A DNA stretch of 64,000 nucleotides from Rhizophagus irregularis (taxonomy: Eukaryota > Glomeromycota > Glomeromycetes > Glomerales > Glomeraceae), in assembly GCF_026210795.1 (NCBI RefSeq), contig NC_089452.1, positions 806,001 through 870,000 of the forward strand, read 5' to 3'. A program made the translations under genes and the position numbers. A model generated the notes under the pieces. The model ran no database searches. It saw only the letters and a program-made list of their open reading frames with translations, and had not been told where the DNA came from. How positions within the stretch are numbered: the first letter of the stretch is position 1; each line of letters begins with the position of its first letter. Positions 5,340 through 62,851 of this stretch are shown here, piece after piece.

Positions 5340-5800
5340 AAATAACAATGGAGTAATGGAAAGTAATAGAAGATGAAAGGGAGTAAAAAAGGGTAATGAG
5401 AAGTGATAGGAAACAAAAAGGAGAAATAGGACATGATGAGAGATGAAAAGGAGTGATGGGAGACGAAAAGAAGTGATGGGTGATGAAGAGGAGTGATGAG
5501 AGATAACAAGGAGTGATAGGAGACAAAAAGAAGTAATGGGAAGATGAAGAGGAGTAATGGGACAAAAAGAAGTGATGGGAGATGAAGAAGAGTGATGAGA
5601 GATAAAAAGGAGTGATGGGAGACAAAAAGAAGTGATGGGAAGATGAAGAGGAGTGATGGGAGATAAAAAGAAGTGATAGGAGACGAAGAGGAGTGATGAG
5701 AGATGGAAAGAAGTGATGGGAAGATGAAGAGGAGTGATGGGAGACAAAAAGGAGTGATGGGAGATGAAAAGAAGTGATAAGAAGATGAAGAGGAGTAAAA
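5340..5800. repeat. GAGTGATGGGAGA minisatellite
   Basis: About 20 imperfect units of roughly 20-21 bases, alternating types such as GGAGTGATGGGAGACAAAAA and GAAGTGATGGGAAGATGAAG, all purine-rich on the plus strand. The same minisatellite, inverted, is inside the MULE-like element at about 46560-46830. Ser/Leu/Phe-rich frames on the minus strand are artefacts of this repeat. Confidence 0.7.
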
Positions 5801-8055: not shown

Positions 8056-11000
8056 TTAAATATGAAATTTCCTATTTATTGGAATAACTGCCATATACTT
8101 TTTCGGATTTCTTTGCCCTACTTCGAAAGTTCCTGAAACAAATCTACATAAAATATTATGTATAGGAATGATACAATCTCTTCCCATCTCATAAAATTTA
8201 TCACTCCATAATTCAATATTACATGAATTAGCATCATCATCAATTTTAAAATAAAATCTTGTTTTACGATTTTCGGCTGGCTTATACCATCTCACAAAAG
8301 CTAAATAATGCGTTCTGGGGCCCTCTTGCAAGTAAACAGTGTGTTCAAAAAAAAATTGAACCTGGCCGGGAAATGTTTCAATAGTATCATCATTCAGAAT
8401 AAACTGTGCCAAAATTTTTGCTGATTTGGCATGTCGATAGGACAATACTGAACCAAATATCTCCATTCCGATTTTTAATCTGCTAAACTGGTTGACTTTT
8501 GGAAGAACAGGAATAGAATGTTCTGGAGCATTATGAATGTGCGACAATGCAACAAAATCTTTTTCATAAACATTACAATAAAATTCTGTTAATAATAAAT
8601 AAATATCTTGCGTAAGCAATACATCTTTTTTTGATGGACCTAAAAAGGAGCCTGGAAATATTTCAAAACCGAAAGCTGCGCCTTCTTCAATTGTAGTTGA
8701 TAACAAGCGAAATGCTTTATAATCTTCGTCAGTATATTCATCATACATTGAAAGGCTTCCGACCGAATCTCTAGGTTTTAATATTATAAGAACTTCCTGA
8801 AGGTGAGGATTTTGGTCGGCATGGGATGTTAATTCATCTAAAAGAGCATTATGTTGAATAATTTTCATAAGCTCAATTTCGATCTTCCTATGACTGTTGT
8901 GAAACGATCCTAAAAATAAATTTGTGTTATAAAAAATAAAGGGTGTGAAAATTGATCATTTTTATTCTATAATTTACCCACCCAATAAGCCATTCATACG
9001 CTCCGTTGAGAAACACCAAAAAGCGTACAAGGGTCCATAGTCCAAAGAGCATTCACATAGATGCAAGCACAAGTGCAGGTTTGGTGTTATTTTTTTAGGC
9101 CCGTATTCTCTCTCTATATCCTTTACCATTTCTACTAAACGTGTATGAGCTTCTTTAAGACCACTTATTGATACTATTCTACACACTAAAATACTACACA
9201 CACGCACGAAGTTTACCAAAATTCTCTGGTCTGCTTCGTTTAAAAGATCCCAAGTAATAGGTATGGCAAATATTAACGTGAATGTTTTCCACTGATCGGC
9301 AGAAAAGCCAGAAAAGCCTTCGCCTGTTGATATTTTACTTGGAATCCTACCAATGTCTACTGGCACCTGGATATTGCTGGCCCTCTTTTGCATAAGTGAG
9401 AGATTTTGTGGCGTTAACTTTCCTTTTTCAATCCAAAGTCTCGTCACGATCCATTTTGCAATTCCAAGGAAAAGACAGTGCATAGGATCTATGACTAAAA
9501 ATCGTATAGGATTAAAGTAGGGTAGGCGATACATTTCAGACCATCGTACCAATGTTACTGATACATGGTTCCGTCATTGTTCTTCTGTTTTACACTGTTT
9601 CCATGCAAAAGCATTGTTCTTAATTTCTTCAACATCTCTTTCTACAAACCAGTTATTCATATCATCAAGTCCTCCAAAATTCGGCTGATTCCTGTCATCG
9701 TAATTGGCATGTTTGAGACACCTATAACATGCAATTCTTGCAGATATATGTCCACAAAGCTTTCTTGCGGCAGGTATGTCACAAGAACAACATATCACAG
9801 CGGCCTTAATTGTTTTTCTGTCGGAATGTTCAAAAGTTTCTGATAGATCAATACCATACCATAATTCAATTAACTGGTCGACCAGAGGAGCAAGGTAGTG
9901 GTTTAGGCGATGTAATGATAGTTCATTTGGTCCTGGGATTAATGCCAACGTTAATATATTAGATGGTTTAAATCGTTCATTCCTGGGTAAGTTGCAAATG
10001 ATAGCATAAATTGCTCCGGTGCTATATTGGGAATTTTCAAACGGTTGAAACCAATCTATGTTAAGCATTATTCCAAGATTGGTATCTGCTAAGTCTTGCT
10101 GAAAGAAGGTTGACCCATTTTCGTCTTTAAAAGATTTCCATATTCTTCCATCATATATATCAGCAAGAATTTCTGGATCAGAGGGACGGTTAACCCACTT
10201 TCTGCAAGCTTCTTCAAAGCCTTTTCGCTTGAACAAAAGATATAATTGATGTTTCAAGCTAATTGTGGGAAATATCAATGCTGGTTTTTTGATTATACCG
10301 TTCTTCGTAGGGACAAGTTTATATAAAGGATTTCTGCAGATCTCTCTTTTATTACTCATTGGGTGGTTAGGAAACTCTTGGAACACACAATCTGTGAATT
10401 TAGGCGTAATATCAGGACTGTTACTAGACACATCGGCAATTCTATACAATTTGCAACACTTTTCGCAAGCCGCATATTTTGTTAGATGCGCGCAAATACC
10501 AAGATTCTTGTGTGCCATATAGAGAGATGTAGGAAACGTCGAAAATAAGTTTTTGTTTATATTCATGAGAACATAGCGGAAAAACTTAAAAAGAGAATTC
10601 GTAGCCACATTAGGTAGACGAAATCTCTCTTGGTACTTCAAGATCCATATAATGATCCAAGAAAAGGTGTCATCTAATCCTTCTTTCGGGTACTTAAGAT
10701 CATCTTCTAATTCCAATTCTGGAGCGTCAAAATTCAATTCAGAATCATCTGATGAATATCCTAAAGTATCATCATCAGAGTTTTGTTCATTTTCCTCTTC
10801 AGATACATTATCACCATCATTGTCATCACCACCATCATCATTATCATCTCCTTCATCATCATCAGAGAATAGTTCATTAGTTACTTCTGGAACCGAAATC
10901 GTAGATTTTATGTTTTTTTGAAATACTGGTAACATTTTTCTAAGTAAGAATTGATAATTTTCTTGTGGATCGTCATCATCATTCGTTTCCATAAATTCTC

Positions 11001-11217
11001 CCAAAGGAGGTATTGGATCAATAGGTTGATTTTTTGATTCAGAATTTCTAATAACTTCTCTTTGAGGTACGATCCTATCTTTTTTAGCATAATGACTTTT
11101 TTTGGTTCTAGGATCTACCAGTTTTCCTTTACAACTTGGACAATAACATTGTACAAATTTTCGCGTTCTAGGAGGATAAACATATGAAGGAGTATTTTTA
11201 TTATTGATATAAGACAT
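8056..11217 (-). pseudogene. Tnp2-like CACTA transposase, two exons, one premature stop
   Basis: Predicted exons (minus) are 11217-8982 and 8909-8056. The intron is 73 bp with donor GTGGGT and an acceptor after TTTTTAG, and the model totals 1030 codons. An N-terminal CPSC-type zinc knuckle lies at about residues 26-40 and a very acidic Asp/Glu segment at about 115-180. The core has likely DDE residues at the D of DWFQPF (about 386), the D of DPMHCLFLG (about 576) and the E of ERMNGLLG (about 740). IPGPNE (about 424) and CDIPAARKLCGH (about 477) are typical family blocks. Codon 548 is TGA (9574-9576). The same frame continues on both sides, so one substitution separates this copy from a full-length gene. 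The start is the ATG at 11217. It would bind the element ends and catalyse cut-and-paste. A Plavaka-type relative is a possible alternative name. Confidence 0.85.
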
Positions 11218-11341
11218 TATTTAATTGAAATTTTATTACTGAATAGATAATTTTGATATAATAACAAACATACGAAAGATCGTAAGTAATAATTGATTTA
11301 ATCATTTGTGTATTATCTAATCCAACCAAAAAGCTTAATTT

Positions 11342-22129: not shown

Positions 22130-25100
22130 TTACATATCCAATGATTCCATATCATTAACCATGCAATCCAAACATTCACTTTCTAGAATTTCATTCACTT
22201 TTTCACTAGTAAAATCAAGTAAGCGACTTGCATAACATGCTTGTGGATGAGGTTCAGCAATAGCAAGATTGTTATGCCCAATTGGTGCATTTATAAATTC
22301 CATAATATGGCTTTTTAATTCTTCATTAATTTCATCACCATAAGGATGGAAAATCCAACTTCCAATGATAACTTTCACTTCTAATGCAGTTGGCCTTTTT
22401 AACGGATCGTCATTCCAACATTTTTTCATTAAATCTATATAACATTGTGGTGTATTTTCAACAACTTTAGGACGTTCACCTTTACAAATGCTTAAACTAA
22501 GTTGAAGATCATGTGCCCTATCATATCATTAGCTGGAGTATAAGGTTTGCCTCTTAAAATTTCGGGTGCCATAAATGGTACAATACCATAAATATCTTCT
22601 TTTTTTAAAAAAGATTTAACAGGTCGACACAAACCCAAATCACTAATATAAATTTTATCCACTGTATTTACTTCATCATAAGCATTATCATTATGATTTA
22701 AAATATTACCATCATGAAAATCACAATGAATAAGATTTTTTCTGTGTATTTCATTAAGTCCAGAAATAATTTTATGTAACATATATAATTTTTGTTTCCA
22801 ATTATTTCCAATTACTTTTCCTAAATTTCCTCTTAAATTACCTTTATTTGCATAATCCATTACCATCATATAATTCAAAGTATCTGGATTTTTCGTAAAT
22901 CCATGTAAGTTAATAATTCCATAAAAATCTAAACATTTTTCATGACATTCCCACTATAAAAATAAAAAATCAAATACATACATCAAATACATACAATTAA
23001 AATATAAAAATAAATAAATAAATAAATAATGTATTATCATACTTCATTTAAAAATTCGTCCAAATTTTCATTCAAATTATTAAGACATTTGAGAACCACT
23101 TCTTTATTTCCATTTAACCAAATAGCTTTATATATGATACTAAACCCTCCTTTATCAAGATATTTAACATTTTTAAATTGATTGTAAGGAATCCATCTTA
23201 ATTTTTTACCAAGAATAAATTTATCTAAAATTGTATTTCCGCTTTTTCCAAACCTATAATTCAAATAATTATAAATCAATATTAAATTTATAATAAATTA
23301 TGCTAAAATTTAAAATTAAATACTCACTCTAAAATTTTATTATGAATATAATAAAATAAAAAATTAGTTTTTGTATAAATATATATAAATAAGTAACCTA
23401 TAATTTATAACTTACCAACTATAGTATCAGATATATTTTTTTTTTAAACAAAGAATTTTAATTAATTGGAACTTTAAATAAATATCATATATCATAAATA
23501 TAATAACAAAACCAACTTACAGGGGTCTAAAATTTTAAATGAAGAATTTAGCTATTTTAAATTACTGTATATATAAATTTTACTGTATACAAATATGCTG
23601 ATAAATGATAATATAATCTTATAACTTACCAACTAAAATAAATTACCAAATAATTTTTTAAAGAAAGAATTTAGATAGTTTATATTTTATAATATGTAAT
23701 AACAATAAATAACTTACCAGCTAAAGTAAATTACCAAATGATTTTTTCAATAAAATATTTAGTTAGTAGTTTATATTATATGTAAATACTGTATAAAATA
23801 TGTTAAATAAATAACTTATAACTTACAATCTAAAATATAAAATAAATTAAAAATTTTTGTAAATATTGCAATATGTAATAATAAAAAATAAAAGAAATAA
23901 CTTACTAACTATATTATTAAATAATTTTTAATAAAGAATTTAGTTATTTATTGTAAATATTATATAGGAAATATAATTAAATAAATAACTTACATCCTAT
24001 ATTATCATGTATAAAAAATTTCGTTAGTTTAAATTATATAAAAATATTAACATATGTAATAATTAATAACTTATAACTTACGATCTGAAATAAATTACAT
24101 ATAATTTTTTAATTAAGGAATTTAATCAAATTATTTAAAAATATTATGTGTAATAGTTAATAACTTACTACCTGAAATAAATTACAAATAATTTTTTAAT
24201 TAAGGTTAGTTAGCTTAAATTATATTAAAATTTATATATCGATATGTTATAATTAATAACTTATAACTTACTACTATCTAAAGTTAAATTGTCAATCAAT
24301 TTTAAATAAAGAATTTAATTAATTTAAATTATACACATATATTATATAGATATGTAATAATAGAATTAAAGAAATAACTCATAACTTACGATCTAAAATA
24401 AATTATCAAATAATTTTTTTAAATAAAGAACTTGGTTAGTTTAAATTATATGTAATAATATAATGCAATGTAATAATAGAATTAAATAAAATAACTTACA
24501 CCCTATATTATTAAATAAGATAAATAATTTAGTTAGTTCTGTATTTCTACATAAATATTATACAAATATGTAATAATAAATAACTTATAACTTACGATCT
24601 AAATAAATGACCAAATAATTTTTTTAAATCAAGTTTAAAATTTATATGTAAATATATGTAATAATGAAATTAAATAAATAACTTACATCCTATATTATTA
24701 AATAATTTTTAAATAAAGTTATTCATTGGTTTAAATTATATATATATATATATATAATACATAATAATATAATTGAATAAATAATTTACCTTCTATATAA
24801 TTAAATAATTTTATAAATAAAGAATTTGGTTAATTTAAATTCCATCTGATATGCAAACATTATATAATTATATAATAACAGAATTAAATAATTGTCTTAC
24901 CTCCTATATCATTATGAAATAATTTTTTAATGAAGAATGAGTTTAAATTATTTGTATTAATATGAATAATGCGGTAGAATTAAATAAATAGCTTATAACT
25001 TACCAACTAAAATAAATTACAAATATATTTTTTTAAATAAAGAATTCAGCCAGTTTAAATTATATATTTGATATTATATATGCAATAGAATTAAATAACT

Positions 25101-26551
25101 TACCACCTGTATTATTAAAAAATTTTTTAAATAGTTAGCAGTTAGTTTAGATAAATATAGATATTATATAAATACATAATAATACATGACTTACCCCCTA
25201 TATTATTAAGTAATTTTTTAAAAATTTAAACAATTAAAATTTTATGTAAAATAGTAATAATAGAATTAAGTAAATAACTTATATCTTACAAGCTAAAGAA
25301 ATTAACATATATAAAAATTGAGTTAAAATTATATGTGAGTGTTATATAAATATGTAATAATAGAAATAAATAAATAACTTACAATCTAAATAAATTGCCA
25401 AATAATTTTTTTAAAGAAAGAATTAAGTTCATTATAAGTAGATATTATAATAATAGAATTATTAATTAAATAACTTACTCCCTATATTATTATAAAATAA
25501 AGAATTTAGTTAATTTAAATTGTTAAATATCATACAAACATGTAATAATAGAATAAATAAATTAATTATTATAACTTACGATCTAAGTAAATTACCAAAT
25601 GGAAAATTTAACCAGGTTAAATTATATGCAAATATTGTATAAGTATATAATGCTAAAATAAAACAACTTACCCCCTATATTATTAAGTAATTTTCCAAAT
25701 AAAGAATTTAGTATATGCATACATTGTATAAACATGTATTAATAGAATTAAATAAATAACTTACTCCCTATATTATTATATTATTGAGCATTAAGAATGA
25801 GTTAGACCAATTTATTTAAATAATAGAAATATAGATAACATATTAACTTACACCCTACAATCATTAGTTATTAGTCAATTAGATGTTAAAAATAAATTAT
25901 ATGCTGTATATTAAATATATAACTTACAATCTAATCATTCAAATAAAGAATTACAGTTAGATGGAATTACATGTAAATATTAAATGGATATATTATAATT
26001 GAATATCACAACCTACCATCTAAATTATTAATTATTAATTAAATAAAGAATTTAGTTATTTGAATATTATATAAATACAGTAAAAAAAGTGAATGATAAC
26101 TTACTAACTATAGTATTATCATCATCAAATAATTATTTAATCATATAGAATATAACAAAAATAAGTAATTCTATTTATGCAAATTATAAGATAATCATTA
26201 ACTTACGAGTTAAATTATCTAAAATAATTTTTTACATGAAATATATTTAGTTTAAATAATATGTGAATATTACATGAAATCGTATAATAAATAAATTATA
26301 ATTAAGAAAAATTTTTTAATATTCAACTTGTTTAGTATATTATATTTACCTTTAGATTCCTTAGTACAAATTCCTTCAAATTCTTCAGTGCTACTTCCTT
26401 TAGATTCCTCAGTGCTATTTCCTTCAAATTTATCGGTGCTACTTGAAACTAGTTATTATGTTTGAAACTTGTTTTAATAATTTTAGAATAATTCCAATCT
26501 GTATTAAATATTAATGAAATATGCTTTACCTCTATCATTGCTGTAAGCCAT
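22130..26551 (-). pseudogene. Ser/Thr protein kinase copy 1, with a tandem intron-like array and a 55-bp frameshift deletion
   Basis: Exon 1 is 26551-26530 (MAYSNDR) and exon 2 is 26448-26350, encoding a repeated 8-aa unit like GSSTEESK. About 30 intron-like units follow (23341-26229), then kinase exons 23253-23043 and 22953-22130. The kinase domain shows a Gly-rich loop LDKGGFSIIY, the lysine in EVVLKCL, the catalytic loop HCDFHDGN in place of HRDLKxxN, DLG in place of DFG, MAPE, and KRPTALEV of subdomain XI. Compared with the paralogue at 50.8 kb, about 55 bases are missing after PYTPAND (near 22522), removing the D-I-Y-S-F-S-M-I-M-W-E-F helix and shifting the frame to an early stop. Downstream sequence is otherwise intact to the stop at 22130. 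This is probably a recent loss. The kinase is of the expanded tyrosine-kinase-like type of Glomeromycetes (inference). Confidence 0.85.
23331..26240 (-). repeat. Tandem array of ~30 intron-like units separated by 3-nt micro-exons
   Basis: On the minus (transcribed) strand each unit starts GTAAG(TTAT) and ends in (T)AG, and the next GTAAG follows after exactly 3 bases. Examples are TTTTAG-TTG-GTAAG, TATAG-GAT-GTAAG, TTTCAG-ATC-GTAAG and ACAG-GTG-GTAAG. I counted 31 junctions: one of 12 nt at the start, two of 6 nt (ATAGTA, ACCCCT), 27 of 3 nt, and a final one of 1 nt (TTTTAG-A-GTGAGT). Units are about 75-125 bp, the size of ordinary introns in this window. Exon 2 leaves phase 1; after the multiples of three and the 1-nt junction the phase is 2, which is what the kinase exon needs. 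The joined micro-exons contain no stop codon. Whether splicing uses them is untested. Confidence 0.8.
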
Positions 26552-46049: not shown

Positions 46050-47152
46050 GGAAATTGCTAAACATCGCACTGTCTTTTGATTGGCCAGATCGGCCACATG
46101 ATCGCATCGAGGGTTCGTTTCCTCAGTTCTTTCGGTCTCAAGATATTTTTTTATTTTTATTTCTTACATTTTTACACTTTGTTTCTTACTAACTCTATTT
46201 CATTATTTTTAGGTCCTTTAGTCCTTCCGGTTCTGCAATTAAGGTTTGGTTGTTTTGTTGTTTTTCACTTTACGTTTCGTTTCTTACTCATTTTTCATTT
46301 TTTTTTATTTTGTTTCTATTTCATATTTCCACTAATTTTATTCATTTTTTTTAGGACTTCTAGTTCTTTCGGTTCTACAATTAATAAAGGTATGTTTTTT
46401 AATTTTATATTTATTTTTTATTATTTGTTTCTATCTTGTATTTCGTTTCTTACTAACTTCATCTTTTTTTTACTTTATGGTTTTATTTTTTACTTGGTTT
46501 CCTATCATTATCTTTTGTTACCCAACCTTCCATCATGATCTTTTTTTATTTTTTGTCTCTCATCATTTTTCACCTCCTATTACTTCTCATTATTCCATCC
46601 TTTTCGTCTCTCATCACTCTTTCGTCTTTCATCACTCCTTTTCGTCTTGCCATCACTTCTTTTCGTCTCCTACCTCTTCATCTTCTTATCATTTCTTTTC
46701 ATCTCTCATCACTCTTTTTCATCTTTAATCACTCCTTTTCGTCTCCAATCACTCCTCTTCATCTTCCCATCATTCCTTTTCGTCTCCCATCAATCCTCTT
46801 CATCTTCTATTACTTTCCATTACTTCATTGTTATTTCATTTTTTATTAGCATCTTTCTTCTTGATCATTGTAATTTACTTATCTTTTTTATTTATTGTTA
46901 TTGTTTCTTTTATTTGTATCACTTTATTAAAAATAAATACAGTGATTTTTTTCTTTAAAATCGTAAATGTGTGACTTAAATTTTAATATTTGTAAATAAA
47001 ATTTTTAGATAAGATTATTTTGAATAAATATGTTTGCAAAAAATTTTTTAAATATTTTTTGCGATAAAATTTTTAAAAAATCAGCCGTCAGCCGATTATA
47101 TATTGTACATCATGTGACATATTTGAAAAAAAAACGACGTTTAACAATTCTC
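46050..47152. mobile_element. Mutator-like (MULE) non-autonomous element, 1103 bp, nested in Harbinger remnant
   Basis: AATACAAAA flanks it exactly (46041-46049 and 47153-47161), a 9-bp target duplication. The ends GGAAATTGCTAAACATCG and, inverted, GAGAATTGTTAAACGTCG agree at 14 of 18 positions. A homologous end, inverted, is at 5026. It contains three near-repeated intron-like blocks (46121-46389), the inverted CATCACTCCTTTTCGTCTCC minisatellite (about 46560-46830), and AT-rich sequence shared with 5100-5340. Frames through it are Ser/Phe/His-rich repeat artefacts. Confidence 0.75.
46560..46830. repeat. CATCACTCCTTTTCGTCTCC minisatellite
   Basis: About 13 imperfect 20-21-base units, the reverse complement of the minisatellite at 5340-5800, carried inside the MULE-like element. 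It is followed by non-repetitive sequence also shared between the two loci (46800-47110 versus 5100-5350 inverted). Confidence 0.7.
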
Positions 47153-47660: not shown

Positions 47661-47667
47661 CAATAAT

Positions 47668-50600
47668 GATTCAAGGTAAAAAGAATATATCATGAATATT
47701 TAATAAAAATTAGAATTATTCTAAAGTTATTAAACCAAATTTCAATATAATAAAAAACTAGTTCCAAGAAGTACTAAAAAAGATATACTAAAAGCTATTT
47801 AGTTATTATAATTTACGTGATAATCAAACTAACTATATTTTATTTAAAATTATTTTAGCTTACTTCGTACAATTTGTAAGTTAATAGTTATTCTATAATT
47901 AGAATAATAATGGAATTACTTATTTTTGACATATTCTGTATATTTGATGATCAATAATACTAACTTTTTTACTGTATTTAACATTCTTCATTTAATAATA
48001 TAGATCGTAAGCTATATATTTAATTCTATTATTATTTATATATATATTATTACATAATTGTATAATATCTGCATGTAATTTAAACTAGCTAAATTCTTTA
48101 TTTATTTATTTAATTCTATTATTACTTATTGTTGTAATATTTACATATAATTTAAACTAACTAAATTCTTTATTTAAAAAATTATTTAAATAATATAGTG
48201 TGTAAGTTATTTATTTAATTCTATTATTTATATAATATTTACATATAATTTAAACTAAATAAATTCTTTATTTAAAAAATTATTTAAATAATTTAGTATG
48301 TAAGTTATTTATTTAATTCTATTATTTATATAATATTTACATGTAATTTAAACTAACTAAATTCTTTATTTAAAAAATTATTTAAATAATATAGTGTGTA
48401 AGTTATTTATTTAATTCTATTATTTATATAATATTTACATATAATTTAAACTAAATAAATTCTTTATTTAAAAAATTATTTAAATAATATAGTGTGTAAG
48501 TTATTTATTTAATTCTATTATTTATATAATATTTACGTATAATTTAAACTAACTAAATTCTTTATTTAAAAAATTATTTAAATAATATAGTGTGTAAGTT
48601 ATTTATTTAATTCTATTATTTATATAATATTTACATGTAATTTAAACTAACTAAATTCTTTATTTAAAAAATTATTTAAATAATATAGTGTGTAAGTTAT
48701 TTATTTAATTCTATTATTTATATAATATTTACATATAATTTAGACTAACTAAATTCTTTATTTAATAGATAGATAGTAAGTTACTATTTATTTAATTATA
48801 TTATTAATTGTTGTTATAATATTTACATAATAATTTAACTAACTAAATTCTTTATTTAGTAGGCAGCAGTAAGTTATAAGTTATTTAATTTTATACATAT
48901 TATTAAGTAATATACGTGAAATGTTGCCATTGTTTGAAAGGGGTTATTAATTCTTATTAAAAATTATTGTTCATATAGCTAGTAAGTTACTATCTAATTC
49001 TATAATTTATATAATGATATTGACATAATTTTAAACTAACTAAATTCTTCATTTAATAGATCGTAAGTTATCTAATTCCATTATTACATATTTTTATAGT
49101 ATTACATATAACTTAAATTGATAAAATCCTTTAATTAAAAAATTATTTAATAATATAGGGAGTAAGTTATTTAATTTACTATTACATATTTATATAATAT
49201 TGGCATATACTAATTTAAACAAAATTTTTTATTTATAAATTATGTAATAATATAGCTTGTAAGTTATTTATTTAATTCTATTATTACATGGTTATATAAT
49301 ATTGCATATAATTTAATTTTAAAAAATTATTTGATATTTATTTAGTTAGTAAGTCATAAATTATTTATTTAATTCTATTATTGTATATCTATATAATATT
49401 TGCATATAATTTAAATTAACTAAATTCTTTTATTTAAAAAAATTATTCAATAATATATAATGTATATAGCTTGTAAGTTATCTATTTAATTCTATTATTA
49501 CTTATTTATATAATATTAGTATATAATTTGAACTAATTAAATTTTTTTATCTAAAAAATTATTTAATAATGTAGCTCGTAAGTTATTTTTGTTCTATTCT
49601 TTCAGTATATTTATATAATATTGATATATAACTTAATTCTTTATCTAAAAAAAATATTTTATGATATAGCAAGTAAGTTACTTATATAATTCTATTATAA
49701 TTAACGTAATTTAAATTAATTAAAATCTTTATTTAAAAAATTATTTATATATAGGGAGTAAGTTATTTGTCTAATTCCATTATTACATATTTATATAATA
49801 TTTACGTATAACTTAAACTAATTATATCTTTTAATTAAAAAATTATATTTTAGTTGGTAAGTCATAAGTTATTTATTTAATCTTACTATTGCATATTTAT
49901 ATAATACTTACATATAATTTAATTGTAATTCGCAGTTAGTAAGTCATAATCCTACTATTACACATGTATATAATATTTACATATAATTTAAACTACTGAC
50001 TAACTAAATTCTTTATTTAATAAAATTATTAAATAATATAGGTTGTAAGTTATTTATTTGACATATTTTTATATGATATTTAAATTAACTAAATTCTTTA
50101 GACTATTTATAAAATTTGAATTTAGATACTTGTAAGTTATTTTATTATAACATAATGTAATGTTTATTTTCAGCTTTATTAACTAAATTCATTTGAAAAA
50201 CTCAAAAAAAAAACTTAGATTCTTGTAAGTTAACTTTATTAGTATATTCATGTAATAATAATTCTAGTTTAATTAATTAAACTCTTTATTTAAAATTTTT
50301 CTGATACTTTAGTTGGTAAGTTATAAATTATTGATTTTTATATATATTATATAAATACTAAGATTTTAATTTTATTATATTCCTAATTAAATTTTAGAGT
50401 AAGTATTAATTTTATTTTTTTTTCTTTAATTTTAACAATAATAACAATTTCTAATTATCTATAGATATGAAGAAAAAAGTGGAAATGCAATTTTAGATAA
50501 ATTTATTTCTGAAAGAAGATTAAAATGGATTCCTTGTAATGAATTTAAAAATGTTGAATATCTTGATAAAGGAGGATTCAGTATTGTATATAAAGCCATT

Positions 50601-51639
50601 TGGTTAGATAGAAATCGAAATAATCAAAACAAAGAAGTAGTTCTTAAATGTCTCAATAATTTGAATGAAAATTTAGATGAATTTTTAAATGAAGTATGAT
50701 AATTATTGTTAATGTTTTTAATTTTATTCATTTATTTATACTAATTACGTATTTCTAATTTTATTTTTATAGTGGAAGTATCATGAGAATTGTTTGAATT
50801 CAAATGAAATTATTAGTTTATATGGATTTACAAAAATGCCATATACTTTGAATTATATGGTAGTATTGGATTATGCAAATAAAGGTAATTTAAGAAGAAA
50901 TTTAACTAAAGTAATTAAAAATACTTGGAAACAAAATTTATATATGTTGTATAAAATTATTTCTGGGCTTTATGAAATACATAAATTAAATCTTATTCAC
51001 TGTGATTTACATGATGGCAATATTTTAAATCACAACAATGAAAAGGATAAAGATGATTTAGAAAATGAAGTTGATAATAATTTAGTTTTTATTAGTGATT
51101 TAGGATTATGCCAACCTGTAAAATCTTCTTTAAAAAAAGATAATATTTATGGAGTCATGCCATTTATGGCACCTGAAATTTTAAGAGGCAAACCTTATAC
51201 TCCAGCTAGTGATATATATAGTTTTTCTATGATTATGTGGGAATTTACATCTGGAGTTCCACCATTTAATGATAGAGCACATGATCTTTAACTTAGTTTA
51301 AGTATTTGTAAAGGTGGACGTCCTAAAATTATTGAAAATACTCCACAATGCTATATAGATTTAATGAAAAAATGTTGGGATGAAGATCCATTAAAAAGGC
51401 CATCTGCATCAGAAGTGAAATATGTTGTTGGAAATTGGATTTTCCGTCCTGATTATGATGAAGAAATTAATGAAGTAAAAAGCAATATTATGGAATTTAC
51501 AGATGCACCGATTGAGAATAATAATCTTTCTACTAAATCTCATCCACAAGCATGTTATACAAGTCGCTTACTTAATTTTACTAGTGAAGAATTGAATGAA
51601 ATTCTCAAAAGTGAAGATTTGAATGAATTTATGATATGA
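47668..51639 (+). pseudogene. Ser/Thr protein kinase copy 2, with intron-like array and a nonsense codon
   Basis: Degenerate 5' exons near 47668 (ATG ATT CAA G, then GTAAAA) and 47770 (TTCCAAGAAGTACT) align with exons 1-2 of copy 1, including the intron between them. The array runs to about 50400. Kinase exons are 50465-50693 and 50773-51639. Motifs: LDKGGFSIVYKAIW, lysine in EVVLKCL, HCDLHDGN, ISDLGLC, MAPEILRG, SDIYSFSMIMWEF and RPSASEV. The frame is intact except for TAA at 51289-51291, where copy 1 has CAA (Gln). A single C-to-T change therefore cuts off subdomain XI, about 116 codons. Copy 1 lacks this change but has its own deletion. The start exon is damaged: the donor of exon 2 reads AAAG-CT. 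Confidence 0.85.
47870..50405 (+). repeat. Tandem intron-like array of kinase copy 2, including five near-identical 98-bp units
   Basis: Junctions of the form TAG-NNN-GTAAG recur about 24 times on the plus strand: ATC, TGT, TAT, TGT (several), ATA, GCAGCA, CTA, ATC, GGA, CTT, TTA, CTT, CTC, CAA, GGA, TTG, TTA, GTT, ATACTT, ATTCTT, TTG, and finally TTTTAG-A-GTAAGT. GTAAG starts at 48202, 48300, 48398, 48496, 48594 and 48692, exactly 98 bp apart, each unit being a 95-bp intron-like body plus 3 nt. These units differ by only a few bases, so they were amplified recently. Two units near 48003-48202 appear fused by loss of one junction. The array matches copy 1 in design but not in the order of trinucleotides. 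Confidence 0.8.
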
Positions 51640-57945: not shown

Positions 57946-58832
57946 TGATGTTATCCGATGATTTTTCTTGACTATTTATTTTTTATTTGGTATTTTTTAG
58001 TTATAAAAAATCCGGCTAATTATGAGGTTATTAAATAAGTGTTATTGTGAAAAGTAATTTCTCCTATTCATTTAATTTTATTTATTTTATTTTTATTTTT
58101 TTTATTTTTAGTTATGACAAATTACAGAGAATTAAAATTTGCATGACTTAAGATGTAGTATAATGTAGGTGTAAATGTATTTACACGATAAAATTATTAA
58201 TATAATTTAGAAAATAAATTATACATTTATATTATTTATATTTAAAAAAGCTATATATTGCTAACATATTGTGTAATCGTACGATTTTGTAATTAAGTAC
58301 ATCCTAAATAAGTTGTTTAACTTTGTTAATTGACCTTTATCAAATATCTGAATACTCTCGATTATCTATCTCTTCAATTGTATCATACATCTTTGCAAAA
58401 AAATCAATCTCAGTTTTAGGGGTGATCACGTTATATTTTTAATTACGCCTGTTTGTCCTATCAAATAATTGTATTGAAGCATGTGAAAGCGATATTGATA
58501 ATCTTGCAGGAGCTGGGAACACTTTTAAAGTCGAATCCTTTATTCGAGAAGCATATTTTATTTAGAACAACTACCATAGATATATAATCCTTCGTATAAG
58601 AACTTGTCTTATCATCAATTTGAGCGGATAATATCTATGTTACAAAACAGAAACATTAGATAATAGGAAAAAACTTAACATTTCTACTCTTGTTTAAAAC
58701 ATGATCTTGATCTTCATGTGAATCAACATGATCTTACATCTACCGATCTACACATCTCTTATACGTTGATCATTTTGCAACATTTGAGAACGTTACCATT
58801 TTTTTTTTTTAAATTAACAATTATTTGAAATA

Positions 58833-59576
58833 ATGCCGACTTGGTCATTAAATTCTGACTTCTCTCTTATACATAATCCTTCTTCAGTATGGTCTTACGG
58901 CTCAAAGCCTGCCAGTTATCACGTAACCGGAACGTTCAGCTTATTTACACACACAGATCCGGAACCAAATAACTATAGCGAAATAATCGCATGGTTTGGG
59001 AGTGATACCGTATGGTATACTCACTGGCTAGGTGTTTATCATAACACCAAGCCAACGAATGTTACCTTAAAGGAACCGAATAATCACACTGTATCATTCA
59101 CTGCTAACGGTGTATCTATGCATCCAGGAGACGATGGTAGATACTCTGTCGTAAGATTCACTGCACCAAAGGATGGAAATTATGCCTTAAACGCAACGTT
59201 TACACATATTCATAATTGTGCAAAACATTCAGGAGTTTACGTAGTATATAATAACCTAATGGCTCTTTGGGAAATAGACCTAGTCGGTCCCGGAGATTCA
59301 AAATCGTTCAAAACAGATGATAGCGGGATTACTGTAAGAGCACATGAGCCTATCGATTTCATTGTAGGCGTTGGTCTAGATAATATCTTCAATTGCGATA
59401 TGACTCTTGCTCGTGTGGATATTCATTTATTAGATCATCAAATAGAATTTTTCGCAATTGTTGGAATAACCGGGTTTGTACTGGGTGTTTTTGTTAGTGC
59501 TATAATAGCTTGTATCCTTTGCCAATGTTGTAGGAGGAGACATAACGTTAATTTTGGTTATATGGCTATCAACTAA
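58833..59576 (+). CDS. Beta-sandwich-like protein with C-terminal membrane anchor, copy B (intact)
   Basis: Intronless, 247 residues from the ATG at 58833. It starts WSLNSDFSLIHNPSSVWSYG, and later carries GVSMHPGDDGRYSVVRFTAP, then KDGNYALNATFTHI, then a VYNNLMALWE strand and DSITVRAHEPIDFIVGVGLD-type text. The set W-x-x-x-x-DFS-x-x-x-NP-x-x-V/W-x-YG, HPG-x-x-G-x-SVVR-x-TAP and D-G-x-Y matches, from memory, exported beta-sandwich proteins of bacteria (some with PEP-CTERM tails). Residues about 207-232 form one hydrophobic helix, followed by CQCCRRRHN and a 10-residue tail. There is no signal peptide, so it would be tail-anchored. The only full-length copy of five. Function is unknown. A bacterial origin is possible, but inferred. 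Confidence 0.75.
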   Translation: MPTWSLNSDFSLIHNPSSVWSYGSKPASYHVTGTFSLFTHTDPEPNNYSEIIAWFGSDTVWYTHWLGVYHNTKPTNVTLKEPNNHTVSFTANGVSMHPGDDGRYSVVRFTAPKDGNYALNATFTHIHNCAKHSGVYVVYNNLMALWEIDLVGPGDSKSFKTDDSGITVRAHEPIDFIVGVGLDNIFNCDMTLARVDIHLLDHQIEFFAIVGITGFVLGVFVSAIIACILCQCCRRRHNVNFGYMAIN

Positions 59577-60534: not shown

Positions 60535-61207
60535 ATGAAATGGTTATTAAGTTCTAACTTCTCTCTTAAAAATGACCCTTCTTCCGTATGGTCTTACGGC
60601 TCAAAACCTGACGTTCAGCTTATATAAGTGGATAGTCGCCTGATTTGGGAGTGATATCTCATGGTGTACTCACTGGCTGGGTGGTGTCTATTATAATACC
60701 AAGCCAACGAATGCTATCTTAAAAGATCGTACTATGGCGGGATTTATTGCTAACGGTGTAGCCGTGCATCCAGGCGATGATGGCAGATTTTCTGTCGTAA
60801 GATTCACCACACTGAAGGATGGGAATTATGTCCTAGATGCAACGTTTACACATATCCATGATTGTGCACTACATTCAGGAGTTACATAGTATATAATAAC
60901 CTAATGGCTCTTTGGGAGTTAAACGGTCCTGAAGGTTCAAAATCGTTCAAAACAACTGATAGTATTACTGTTAGAGCAAATGAACCTATCGATTTCATTG
61001 TAGGCGTTGGTCTAGATAATATCACCAATTGCGATATGACTCTTTGCTCGTGTGGATATTTATTTATTAGAAAATCAAATAGAATATCCCGTAATTGCTG
61101 GATCAATCAGATTTGTACTGGGTATATTATTAGTGCTTATTCTATTTTGTATCTATTACCGATATCGTAAGAATAGACAGAACGTTAGGTTATGAGGTTA
61201 TCAACTA
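60535..61207 (+). pseudogene. Beta-sandwich family, copy C (frameshifted)
   Basis: It starts ATG AAA TGG and reads LSSNFSLKNDPSSVWSYG, then loses about 70 bases found in copy B after SKP and meets a TAA. Later parts are alternately in and out of frame: GVAVHPGDDGRFSVVRFTT, then a 1-base loss at GGAGTTACATAG, then an NNLMALWELNGPEGS frame, then another shift at ATGACTCTTTGCTCG. The end corresponds to GYEVIN and a TAA at 61207. At least three frame lesions. Confidence 0.75.
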
Positions 61208-62123
61208 AATGTAAATTGTGAACTTAAGATGATTTCTTTTATTTGTTTGTTTATTTATTTTATGAAAAATCAACCTCAATAATTTTATTAAGAATAATCT
61301 GTATTTAGTATAATGTAAATTTCCAAATGTATCATGGTTAAAAAAATAAAGGCGTTTATTAGAAATGTAATATAAAAATAAATTATACATTTATATTCTT
61401 TATTTTTATATTTAAAGAAACTATGTATCATCATGATCTCTCTAAATAACATGTGATCGTACGATTTTTCGTTTAAAGACTGCATTATTTTGGTAATTAA
61501 CTAAATAAGCTATTTACCTATAGTAGTAATTGAATCATTGGGATTAACTTTGTTAATGATCTTCAACAAATATCTATTGTCTCTTCAATTGTATCATACA
61601 TCATCTTATGATGTTCGCGCGGCTTTTCGTTGATCAAGTTGGCAACCATCTGCTTCTATACCAGACGAATCATGTTATATTTGCTGCAAAAAACCTATTA
61701 AACCTATTGATGTATCAATCGCAGTTTTGGGACGTGATCACACGCTATATTTTTTAATTACGTCATTTAAAGCCTCTGCTGAAGTCAAATAAAAGCGATA
61801 TTGATGATCTTGCAAAGATTTAAAGCATGTTCGGAACTTTAAGTCGAATTCTTTCTTCGAGAATTTAAAACTAGCTAGATATTTAATCCGGACTTAGGAT
61901 GTCGTATAAGAACTTGTTCAATTTGAGGAAGAGAATGCGGATAATATCTATGTTACAAAGCAGAACATACATACTAGATAATAGGAAACTTACTCATGTT
62001 AAAACTAGAATCAACAGGATCTGAACAGATCTACTGATCTACGCGACGTCTTTTATACGTTGCAGATTATTTAGTAACACTTGAGAAACGCACCATTTTT
62101 TAAATTCACAACTATTTGAAATA
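61208..62123. other. spacer of the tandem gene array
   Basis: Matches the spacer at 62852-63927 block by block, including CAATCGCAGTTTTGGGACGTGATCACACG and GATCTACGCGACGTCTTTTATACGTTG (shortened here to GATCTACGCGACGTC). Confidence 0.5.
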
Positions 62124-62851
62124 ATGCCGACTTGGTCATTAAGTTCTGACTTCTCTCTTATACATAATCCTTCTTCGGTATGGTCCTTCGGCTCAAAGCC
62201 TGCCGGTCATCACGTAACCGGAATGTTCAGCTTATTTACACACTTAGATCCGGAACCAAATGACTATAGCGAAATAATCGCCTGGTTTGGGAGTGATACC
62301 ATATGGTATACTCACTGGCTTGGCGTTTATTATAACACTAAGCCAATGAATATTATCCTAAAGGAACCGAATACTAACATTATGACATTTACTGCCAACG
62401 GTGTAGCTATGCACCCAGGAGACGATGGTAGATTCTCAGTCGTAAGATTCACTGCACCAAAGGATGGGAATTATGTCCTAGACACAACATTTACACATAT
62501 CCATAATTGTGCACTACATTCAGGAGTTTACATAGTATATAATAACCTGACGCTTTGGGAAATAGGCTTAGCTGGTCCTGGAGATTCAAAATCGTTCAAA
62601 ACAACTGATAGTTTTACTGTTAGAGCAAATGAGCCTATCGACTTGTTGGTCTAGATAATATCTTCAATTGTGATATGACTCTTGCTCGTGTGGATATTCA
62701 TTTATTAGAAAATCAAATAGAATTTCCCGTAATTGCTGGATCAATCGGATTTGTATTGGGTATTATTGTTACTACTATTCTACTTTGTATCTATTACCGA
62801 TATCGTGGGAATAGACAGAACGGTAATGCTGGTTATGAGGTTATCGGCTAA
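62124..62851 (+). pseudogene. Beta-sandwich family, copy D (10-bp deletion)
   Basis: Intact from the ATG at 62124 through about 173 codons and highly similar to copy B. Then ten bases present in copy B between CCTATCGA and GTTGGTCTAG are missing (about 62641), so the frame ends in TAG at 62652. The sequence after the deletion is open in the shifted frame to the TAA at 62851 and encodes a membrane helix like that of copy B (IEFPVIAGSIGFVLGII) and a GYEVIG tail. Without the helix the truncated product would be soluble. This could be a recent loss or a soluble variant. Confidence 0.8.

Follow-up and report, generated by a model that had tools for sequence, protein, structure and literature searches.

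In a 64,000-nucleotide stretch of the Rhizophagus irregularis genome (contig NC_089452.1, positions 806,001 to 870,000; hereafter the window, numbered from its first letter), a kinase gene on the minus strand carries an array of head-to-tail introns separated by exons that are mostly 3 nt long (array 1). We propose that these micro-exons are included in the mRNA and translated in the frame of the outer exons, so that one residue would be encoded per repeat. From the sequence evidence laid out below, we give this reading a probability of roughly 0.84. A sister array built alike (array 2) lies on the plus strand of the window; on either side, the two arrays are flanked by a short first exon and by an exon of the kinase.

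A pattern search of array 1 (26349-23254, minus strand) returned 31 acceptor/micro-exon/donor junctions. Micro-exons other than 3 nt measure 12 nt (26218-26207), 6 nt (23526-23521) and 1 nt (23328), plus one that is ambiguous, since the pattern reads it as 2 nt (24273-24272) and an upstream TTTAG acceptor makes it 6 nt (ATAGTA). The same counts, 27 of 31 micro-exons of 3 nt and the others of 6, 12 or 1 nt, had been given by an earlier inspection of the letters made without database searches (the sequence-only reading), which did not mention array 2 or the apparently broken state of the two kinase copies. This reading had also stated that the phases of the outer exons fit and that the joined codons contain no stop. 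With the 6-nt version of the ambiguous exon, the joined chain is indeed open in the outer-exon frame from the 12-nt exon to the kinase exon, and the other two frames hit stops. Base 26350 is a first codon position and base 23253 a third one; removal of array 1 in one step would therefore shift the frame, which could not be kept without, as a minimum, the 1-nt exon at 23328.

The arrangement is not confined to the window. In the genome searched (146.7 Mb, 32 contigs), exact TAG-NNN-GTAAGTTA junctions with 3-nt spacing (TAGNNNGTAAGTTA) were found 4,268 times compared to 175 for a reversed-pattern control. With one base more, i.e. a 4-nt spacing (TAGNNNNGTAAGTTA), the numbers were 86 and 214 for the pattern and its reversed control, respectively. 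A 506-bp piece of array 2 gave at least 419 matches in the genome. Parsing of 32 arrays yielded 998 three-nt exons versus 705 exact pattern matches, a ratio which extrapolates to about 6,000 three-nt exons genome-wide. From the density among the matches listed and in the parsed arrays, our guess is that the genome holds 200-300 arrays, with roughly 20 to at least 85 introns per array, head to tail.

Nearly all of the arrays fetched adjoin one type of gene. The same tyrosine-kinase-like (TKL) kinase exon is found directly downstream, on the same strand, of both window arrays and of the arrays in 19 of the 20 loci fetched first, the exception being L025, where the stretch ends before any kinase. 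These 20 loci were picked by their arrays; L029-L038 were picked by their kinase and are uninformative on the link. Three further array places had no kinase among the matches listed: L041 has a kinase, L039 is array up to its end and L040 has none in the 5 kb fetched. The predicted protein of locus L010 matches PF07714 (E 3.4e-43) and PF00069 (E 4.5e-39) above the curated cut-off, and the kinase pieces of the window match protein kinase domain profiles. R. irregularis is known to have an expanded set of genes carrying PF07714, a tyrosine-kinase motif, from passages that do not mention micro-exons (PMC6123716). As to the two places without a kinase, the L040 array (C23:3393600-3398600) carries an insertion and looks decayed; one of its adjacent joins, TGT AAC, reads by eye as a stop, as expected if constraint has been lost. 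In L039 (C22:2758600-2763600), 39 more junctions, mostly TTG and AAC, fill the fetched sequence to its last part. Among the kinase matches listed for the same strand, the closest lies some 6 kb beyond, and this array may be among the longest.

The genes follow a common plan. In 21 loci, 17 first exons were found by script, all of 10-31 nt and all ending one base into a codon (phase 1). They are followed in some genes by an exon with 24-bp repeats. The last micro-exon of the arrays is mostly TTG, a site for a 1-nt exon A (TAG-A-GTAAGT or GTGAGT) precedes the kinase in 31 of the 32 arrays, and the kinase exon mostly starts with A-TTT-GGN or G-TTT-GGN, so that the G of TTG, the single A and the following A or G make a Glu codon. 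If an array were removed as a single intron, the reading frame would change. In the frame that the outer exons impose, codons straddle the introns: a micro-exon gives its last base and the one after it the other two, its first and second. The start of the first exon varies among paralogues (e.g. L010, L016 and L013): it reads MGQCIS in some, resembling an N-myristoylation/palmitoylation signal, and MDQCID or MAQSND in others.

Splice sites and micro-exons have diverged very differently. When junctions were anchored on strong acceptors (n=524), the information content was 0.27, 0.48 and 0.16 bits at the three exon bases, against 1.79, 1.83 and 1.71 bits at the three donor bases that follow. GTAAG stood exactly at +3 in 462 of the 524, a figure that may slightly flatter the donors because the acceptor weights were trained on junctions with GTAAG at +3. 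Anchored instead on donors inside the arrays (GTAAGT followed by T, C or A), AG was found exactly at -5/-4 in 862/882. In a body-anchored test with 686 usable junctions, the nearest AG lay 3 nt before the donor in 524 and 1 nt before it in 71; this last class can contain AGN exons, in which the AG is inside the exon, and the acceptor and donor anchorings are thus preferred. The view that splice-site bases stayed constant and the trinucleotides diverged, put forward in the sequence-only reading, is upheld by these values, and equal divergence is ruled out (0.16-0.48 vs 1.71-1.83 bits).

The introns themselves look like ordinary spliceosomal introns. Among 1,017 introns, 604 have a CTAAC branch-point-like motif close to the 3' end, 330 have a looser version and 83 have neither, compared to 16, 412 and 589, respectively, in a shuffled control. 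GC donors are rare (12 among the parsed introns, 8 of these in L014). Intron length has a median of 97 nt and ranges from 76 to 120 nt (5th-95th percentile) while the spacing between introns stays at 3 nt. Introns share more 8-mers within an array (Jaccard about 0.35) than between arrays (about 0.20), which fits the suggestion, made from the sequence earlier, that an intron and a one-codon exon were amplified as a pair. Since similarity within an array is nearly flat with distance (0.355 at lag 1, 0.353 at lag 7 and 0.332 at lag 12), we propose no specific duplication model.

The strongest evidence for translation comes from the distribution of stop codons. Arrays were parsed with splice-site weights that contain no codon knowledge and with exon length left free between 0 and 40 nt, initially in 21 arrays and then in 11 held-out loci. 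The 32 arrays gave 1,049 internal exons, of which 998 came out as 3 nt and 13 as 1 nt. In 21 of the 32 chains every exon is a multiple of 3; 20 of these 21 are stop-free, with up to 56 micro-exons (L013). The chains of L017 and L036 are partial and end early, and in array 1 of the window the parser recovered 27 of the 31 exons. Loci L001-L008 and L039-L041, as well as joins to exons other than 3 nt (51 of 1,049 exons), fall outside the stop counts. In the outer-exon frame of the 21 arrays, 0 of 617 codons were stops, compared to 22.4 +- 3.7 on shuffling within runs, and none of 2,000 shuffles was as low. By contrast, the neighbouring frame showed no depletion (95/617). The 11 held-out loci, which had no part in training the weights, gave 1 stop in 327 against 17.1 +- 3.1 expected. 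Pooled, adjacent joins held 1 stop in 944 against 40.1 +- 4.9 expected, and the phase-2 control 138 in 944. The idea of a peptide built one codon per exon, one of several offered by the sequence-only reading, is thereby strongly supported.

The depletion can be traced to particular joins. After a micro-exon ending in T, the next one starts with AT 74 times, GG 67 times and TT 63 times, but with AA 0, AG 1 and GA 0 times; AA, AG and GA follow a final A 18, 25 and 6 times, a final C 24, 13 and 4 times, and a final G 32, 35 and 10 times. With each combination counted a single time per array, the deficit is significant by Fisher's test for AA/AG versus AT (p = 3.1e-5) and for GA versus GG (p = 0.019). 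When the join skips exons, stops return (32/896 at lag 2, 40/851 at lag 3 and 43/807 at lag 4). As stops are depleted for adjacent joins only, every micro-exon has been exposed to selection while joined to the one next to it.

These data bear on two other explanations. The arrays could be a non-coding satellite, a tandem repeat inside one large intron that is removed whole or stepwise and whose 3-nt pieces never reach the mRNA. The homogenisation of units within arrays and the L040 array without a kinase in its 5 kb are what such a satellite would give, and so is the lack of database matches for the peptides described below. However, no constraint beyond homogenisation would then be expected, and the depletion of stops is specific to the outer-exon frame and to adjacent joins. 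Furthermore, the 3-nt spacing is fixed although intron length varies, and whole removal up to the kinase exon would put the kinase out of frame. We consider a non-coding satellite very improbable. A second explanation keeps the phase-1 frame but lets many micro-exons be skipped at will, one gene giving peptides of many lengths. Each 3-nt skip preserves the frame and a one-exon skip creates a stop in few cases, so that most would be tolerated, but the absence of a clear depletion at lag 2, compared to that of adjacent joins, is contrary to skipped forms being important. Free skipping accordingly has only a small chance of being right.

Several observations weigh against inclusion and translation in the outer-exon frame. 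The arrays are related, so that counts and table cells are not independent. Array 1 taken alone is not significant (1,472 of 10,000 order shuffles were equally stop-free), and the inference thus rests on the whole array family. Of the 32 parsed chains, 11 hold at least one exon with a length not divisible by 3, and several of these chains then show stops, and the L038 chain has an in-frame stop; the irregular exons stem from decayed splice sites or parser choices. Both kinase copies of the window look broken. A retrocopy was looked for with a single pattern, the joined junction TTYGARTTYGGNAARAGYGG, which was found at 0 places in the genome. When the phase-1 peptides of 14 of the 32 arrays were concatenated, no database protein was returned at E <= 10, in a search that scored only word-sharing proteins of 0.55-1.75 times the query length; the phase-0 peptides of the same arrays likewise gave none at E <= 10, with a low-complexity query. 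Finally, stops are also rare (2/992) if each NNN is read as a codon (phase 0), and several GenBank models that include micro-exon residues appear to follow this phase with another last exon.

In such a phase-0 reading, apparently adopted in some GenBank entries, the last exon would be AGTAA/GT. Residues 1-100 predicted for L010 gave 66 protein matches with a query coverage of 25-64%, which fits the kinase-proximal half; these kinase matches carry Rhizophagus names, with R. diaphanus and R. clarus among them. Nothing similar to the L010 peptide precedes the kinase start in the protein sequences listed for those matches, and P0044, apparently the entry of the L010 gene itself, starts inside the kinase exon. 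Six of the 66 proteins (P0005, P0011, P0015, P0019, P0030 and P0036) have N-termini that resemble one-codon chains by eye. In P0030, the stretch GEEGILELV aligns by eye with the L036 units GGA GAA GAA GGA ATC TTG GAA TTG GTC. However, P0030, whose last exon is apparently AGTAA, reaches phase 0 through an exon running over a consensus donor, and by the trained donor weights AGTAA/GTAATA is a weaker donor than A/GTAAGT. The phase-0 frame also conflicts with the phase in which all 17 first exons end, and does not explain why T-AA, T-AG and T-GA are missing among the joins across introns. The rarity of phase-0 stops cannot judge the matter, since the number expected depends on the type of shuffle (2.2 with third-base and 43.5 with first-base shuffling). 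The P0030 model may come from gene-finding software avoiding a 1-nt exon, and we hold translation in this phase to be extremely improbable.

Returning to translation in the outer-exon frame, we propose that each copy of the repeat comprises an entire spliceosomal intron, with a GTAAGTTA-type donor, a TAG acceptor and, in most cases, a branch motif like CTAAC, together with one codon's worth of exon, and that the array sits between the short N-terminal exons and the kinase exon of TKL-type kinase genes. Every intron would be removed and the 3-nt exons joined in order, then to the 1-nt exon and then to the kinase exon, each repeat adding one residue to a segment in front of the kinase domain. 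Short introns with strong sites would suit recognition across the intron. Since simultaneous binding of two sites with only 3 nt between them is hardly feasible, stepwise removal is most likely; it might start from the 5' end during transcription, each step making the micro-exon the end of a normal exon. The spliceosome would probably work through this ladder one intron at a time, and the recursive-splicing ladder that the sequence-only reading had offered as another option would then describe the order of splicing. Each residue would be set by two neighbouring micro-exons, and the gain, loss or shuffling of units would rewrite the peptide with the frame intact, since units are symmetrical and their gain or loss changes the peptide by whole residues. 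Turnover of the arrays probably involves entire units, through exchange or slippage. The phase-1 segments are rich in Arg (13.2%), with Tyr, Asn, Phe, Glu, Trp and Asp at 7-8% each; this bias may be caused by the codon grammar itself. One may speculate on a role of this variable segment in recognition or regulation.

The features of the two window genes are collected in the table below.

Features of the two array-kinase genes in the window
Feature	Position	Strand	Remarks
Gene 1, likely first coding exon	26530..26551	-	ATGGCTTACAGCAATGATAGAG, MAYSNDR + 1 base, phase 1 end
Gene 1, likely second exon	26350..26448	-	99 nt, 24-bp repeats, phase 1-1, acceptor placed by eye
Array 1	23328..26218	-	31 junctions; micro-exons of 12, 3 (27/31), 6 and, last, 1 nt; introns 73-116 nt
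Gene 1, 1-nt exon A	23328..23328	-	context TTTTAG-A-GTGAGT
Gene 1, kinase exon A	23043..23253	-	first base finishes Glu codon G+A+G
Gene 1, kinase exon B	22130..22953	-	looks broken; frame lost near 22495-22525
Gene 2, likely first exon	47666..47675	+	ATGATTCAAG, phase 1
Array 2	48004..50398	+	25 listed junctions; last exon is the 1-nt A at 50398
Gene 2, kinase exons	50475..51639	+	in-frame stop at about 51289-51291, within the second

The window thus contains two decaying members of the array-kinase family. Within array 2, seven near-identical units (48135-48858) have a 98-bp period and a TGT or TAT exon, mostly TGT; they apparently reflect a recent expansion within a gene whose kinase frame has a stop. 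The sequence GGTGGAGGGATCGGAATTCTTGGGGTGTTG, which joins 10 micro-exons of array 1, was not found in the window or in the fetched loci. Outside the window, L014 has three 4-nt exons (GATT, GGAG and GGAA), which together would add 3 bases, and by ORF lengths its kinase frames look open. Other features of the window include a 548-aa open reading frame (ORF; 9574-11220, minus strand) matching Transposase_21 (tnp2; E 1.7e-15), and two distant 20-bp tandem arrays, at 5434-5796 (plus strand) and 46598-46806, whose consensus sequences are reverse-complementary (TGATGGGAGATGAAAAGGAG versus TCCTTTTCGTCTTTCATCAC). Three similar ORFs (MPTWSL...SDFSLIHNPSSVWS) at 58818-59576, 60862-61170 and 62085-62654 (plus strand), the first of which has no Pfam match, look like a small local gene family.

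In the micro-exon genes of schistosomes the coding sequence consists largely of many short symmetrical exons, as in the Rhizophagus arrays. Unlike in these arrays, however, the schistosome micro-exons are longer than one codon and their introns are not known to form a tandem satellite. Exons as short as those proposed here are documented elsewhere: Arabidopsis APC11 has a constitutive 1-nt exon (PMC4674806), the splicing of plant 1-nt exons with GTRAGT donors, like that of the terminal A here, has been documented for APC11 and VPS55 (PMC4674806, PMC8831610), and Drosophila homothorax has a 3-bp exon (PMC7392893). In these reports, such 1-3 nt exons are isolated, or at most two are adjacent, as in a rice transcript with microexons of 5 and 12 nt (PMC8831610), whereas tens of them stand in a row within a tandem repeat here. 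The introner-like elements and repeated stwintrons of fungi are likewise families of near-identical introns multiplied in a genome, but they are described as having spread to many sites or as nested (PMC4457414, PMC8469720, PMC9024468), whereas the units here stand head to tail in one place and, as far as the fetched loci show, in one gene family. In recursive splicing, a 3' site is also closely followed by a 5' site that is usable in a later step (PMC6224609); unlike there, the piece between the two sites appears here to be kept and translated. The sequence-only reading knew of no description of such an array, and our searches of the openly licensed PMC literature turned up none. We regard the splicing chemistry as ordinary and the architecture of the array as new, although on a stricter judgement it might count as an extreme variant of micro-exon genes.

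If translation in the outer-exon frame is correct, tens of consecutive introns would be spliced accurately around exons far below the ordinary size for exon recognition, and the arrays would be a test case from nature for intron definition and for splicing in steps. In the public gene models examined, array segments are left out or read in another way, and studies of these kinases may be using wrong N-termini. Manley et al. 2023 report Nanopore RNA-seq from spores of this strain, mapped with an intron limit of 3,000 nt, and list Illumina data PRJNA722386 (PMC10234402); spliced alignment easily loses 3-nt exons. Repeat instability would be turned into diversity of proteins with no frameshift involved, in a gene family that is strongly expanded in the fungal partners of most land plants. 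We see an even chance that the arrays amount to a "coding satellite", a repeat of introns in which a single codon separates each copy from the next, spread, by a rough extrapolation, across some 200-300 kinase genes. Its ordinary tandem-repeat turnover would rewrite a variable peptide by one residue per repeat, with the frame undamaged. Such repeats would perhaps serve self/non-self or partner recognition in arbuscular mycorrhizal fungi, and introns would then be the scaffold of variation in a gene-diversification system.

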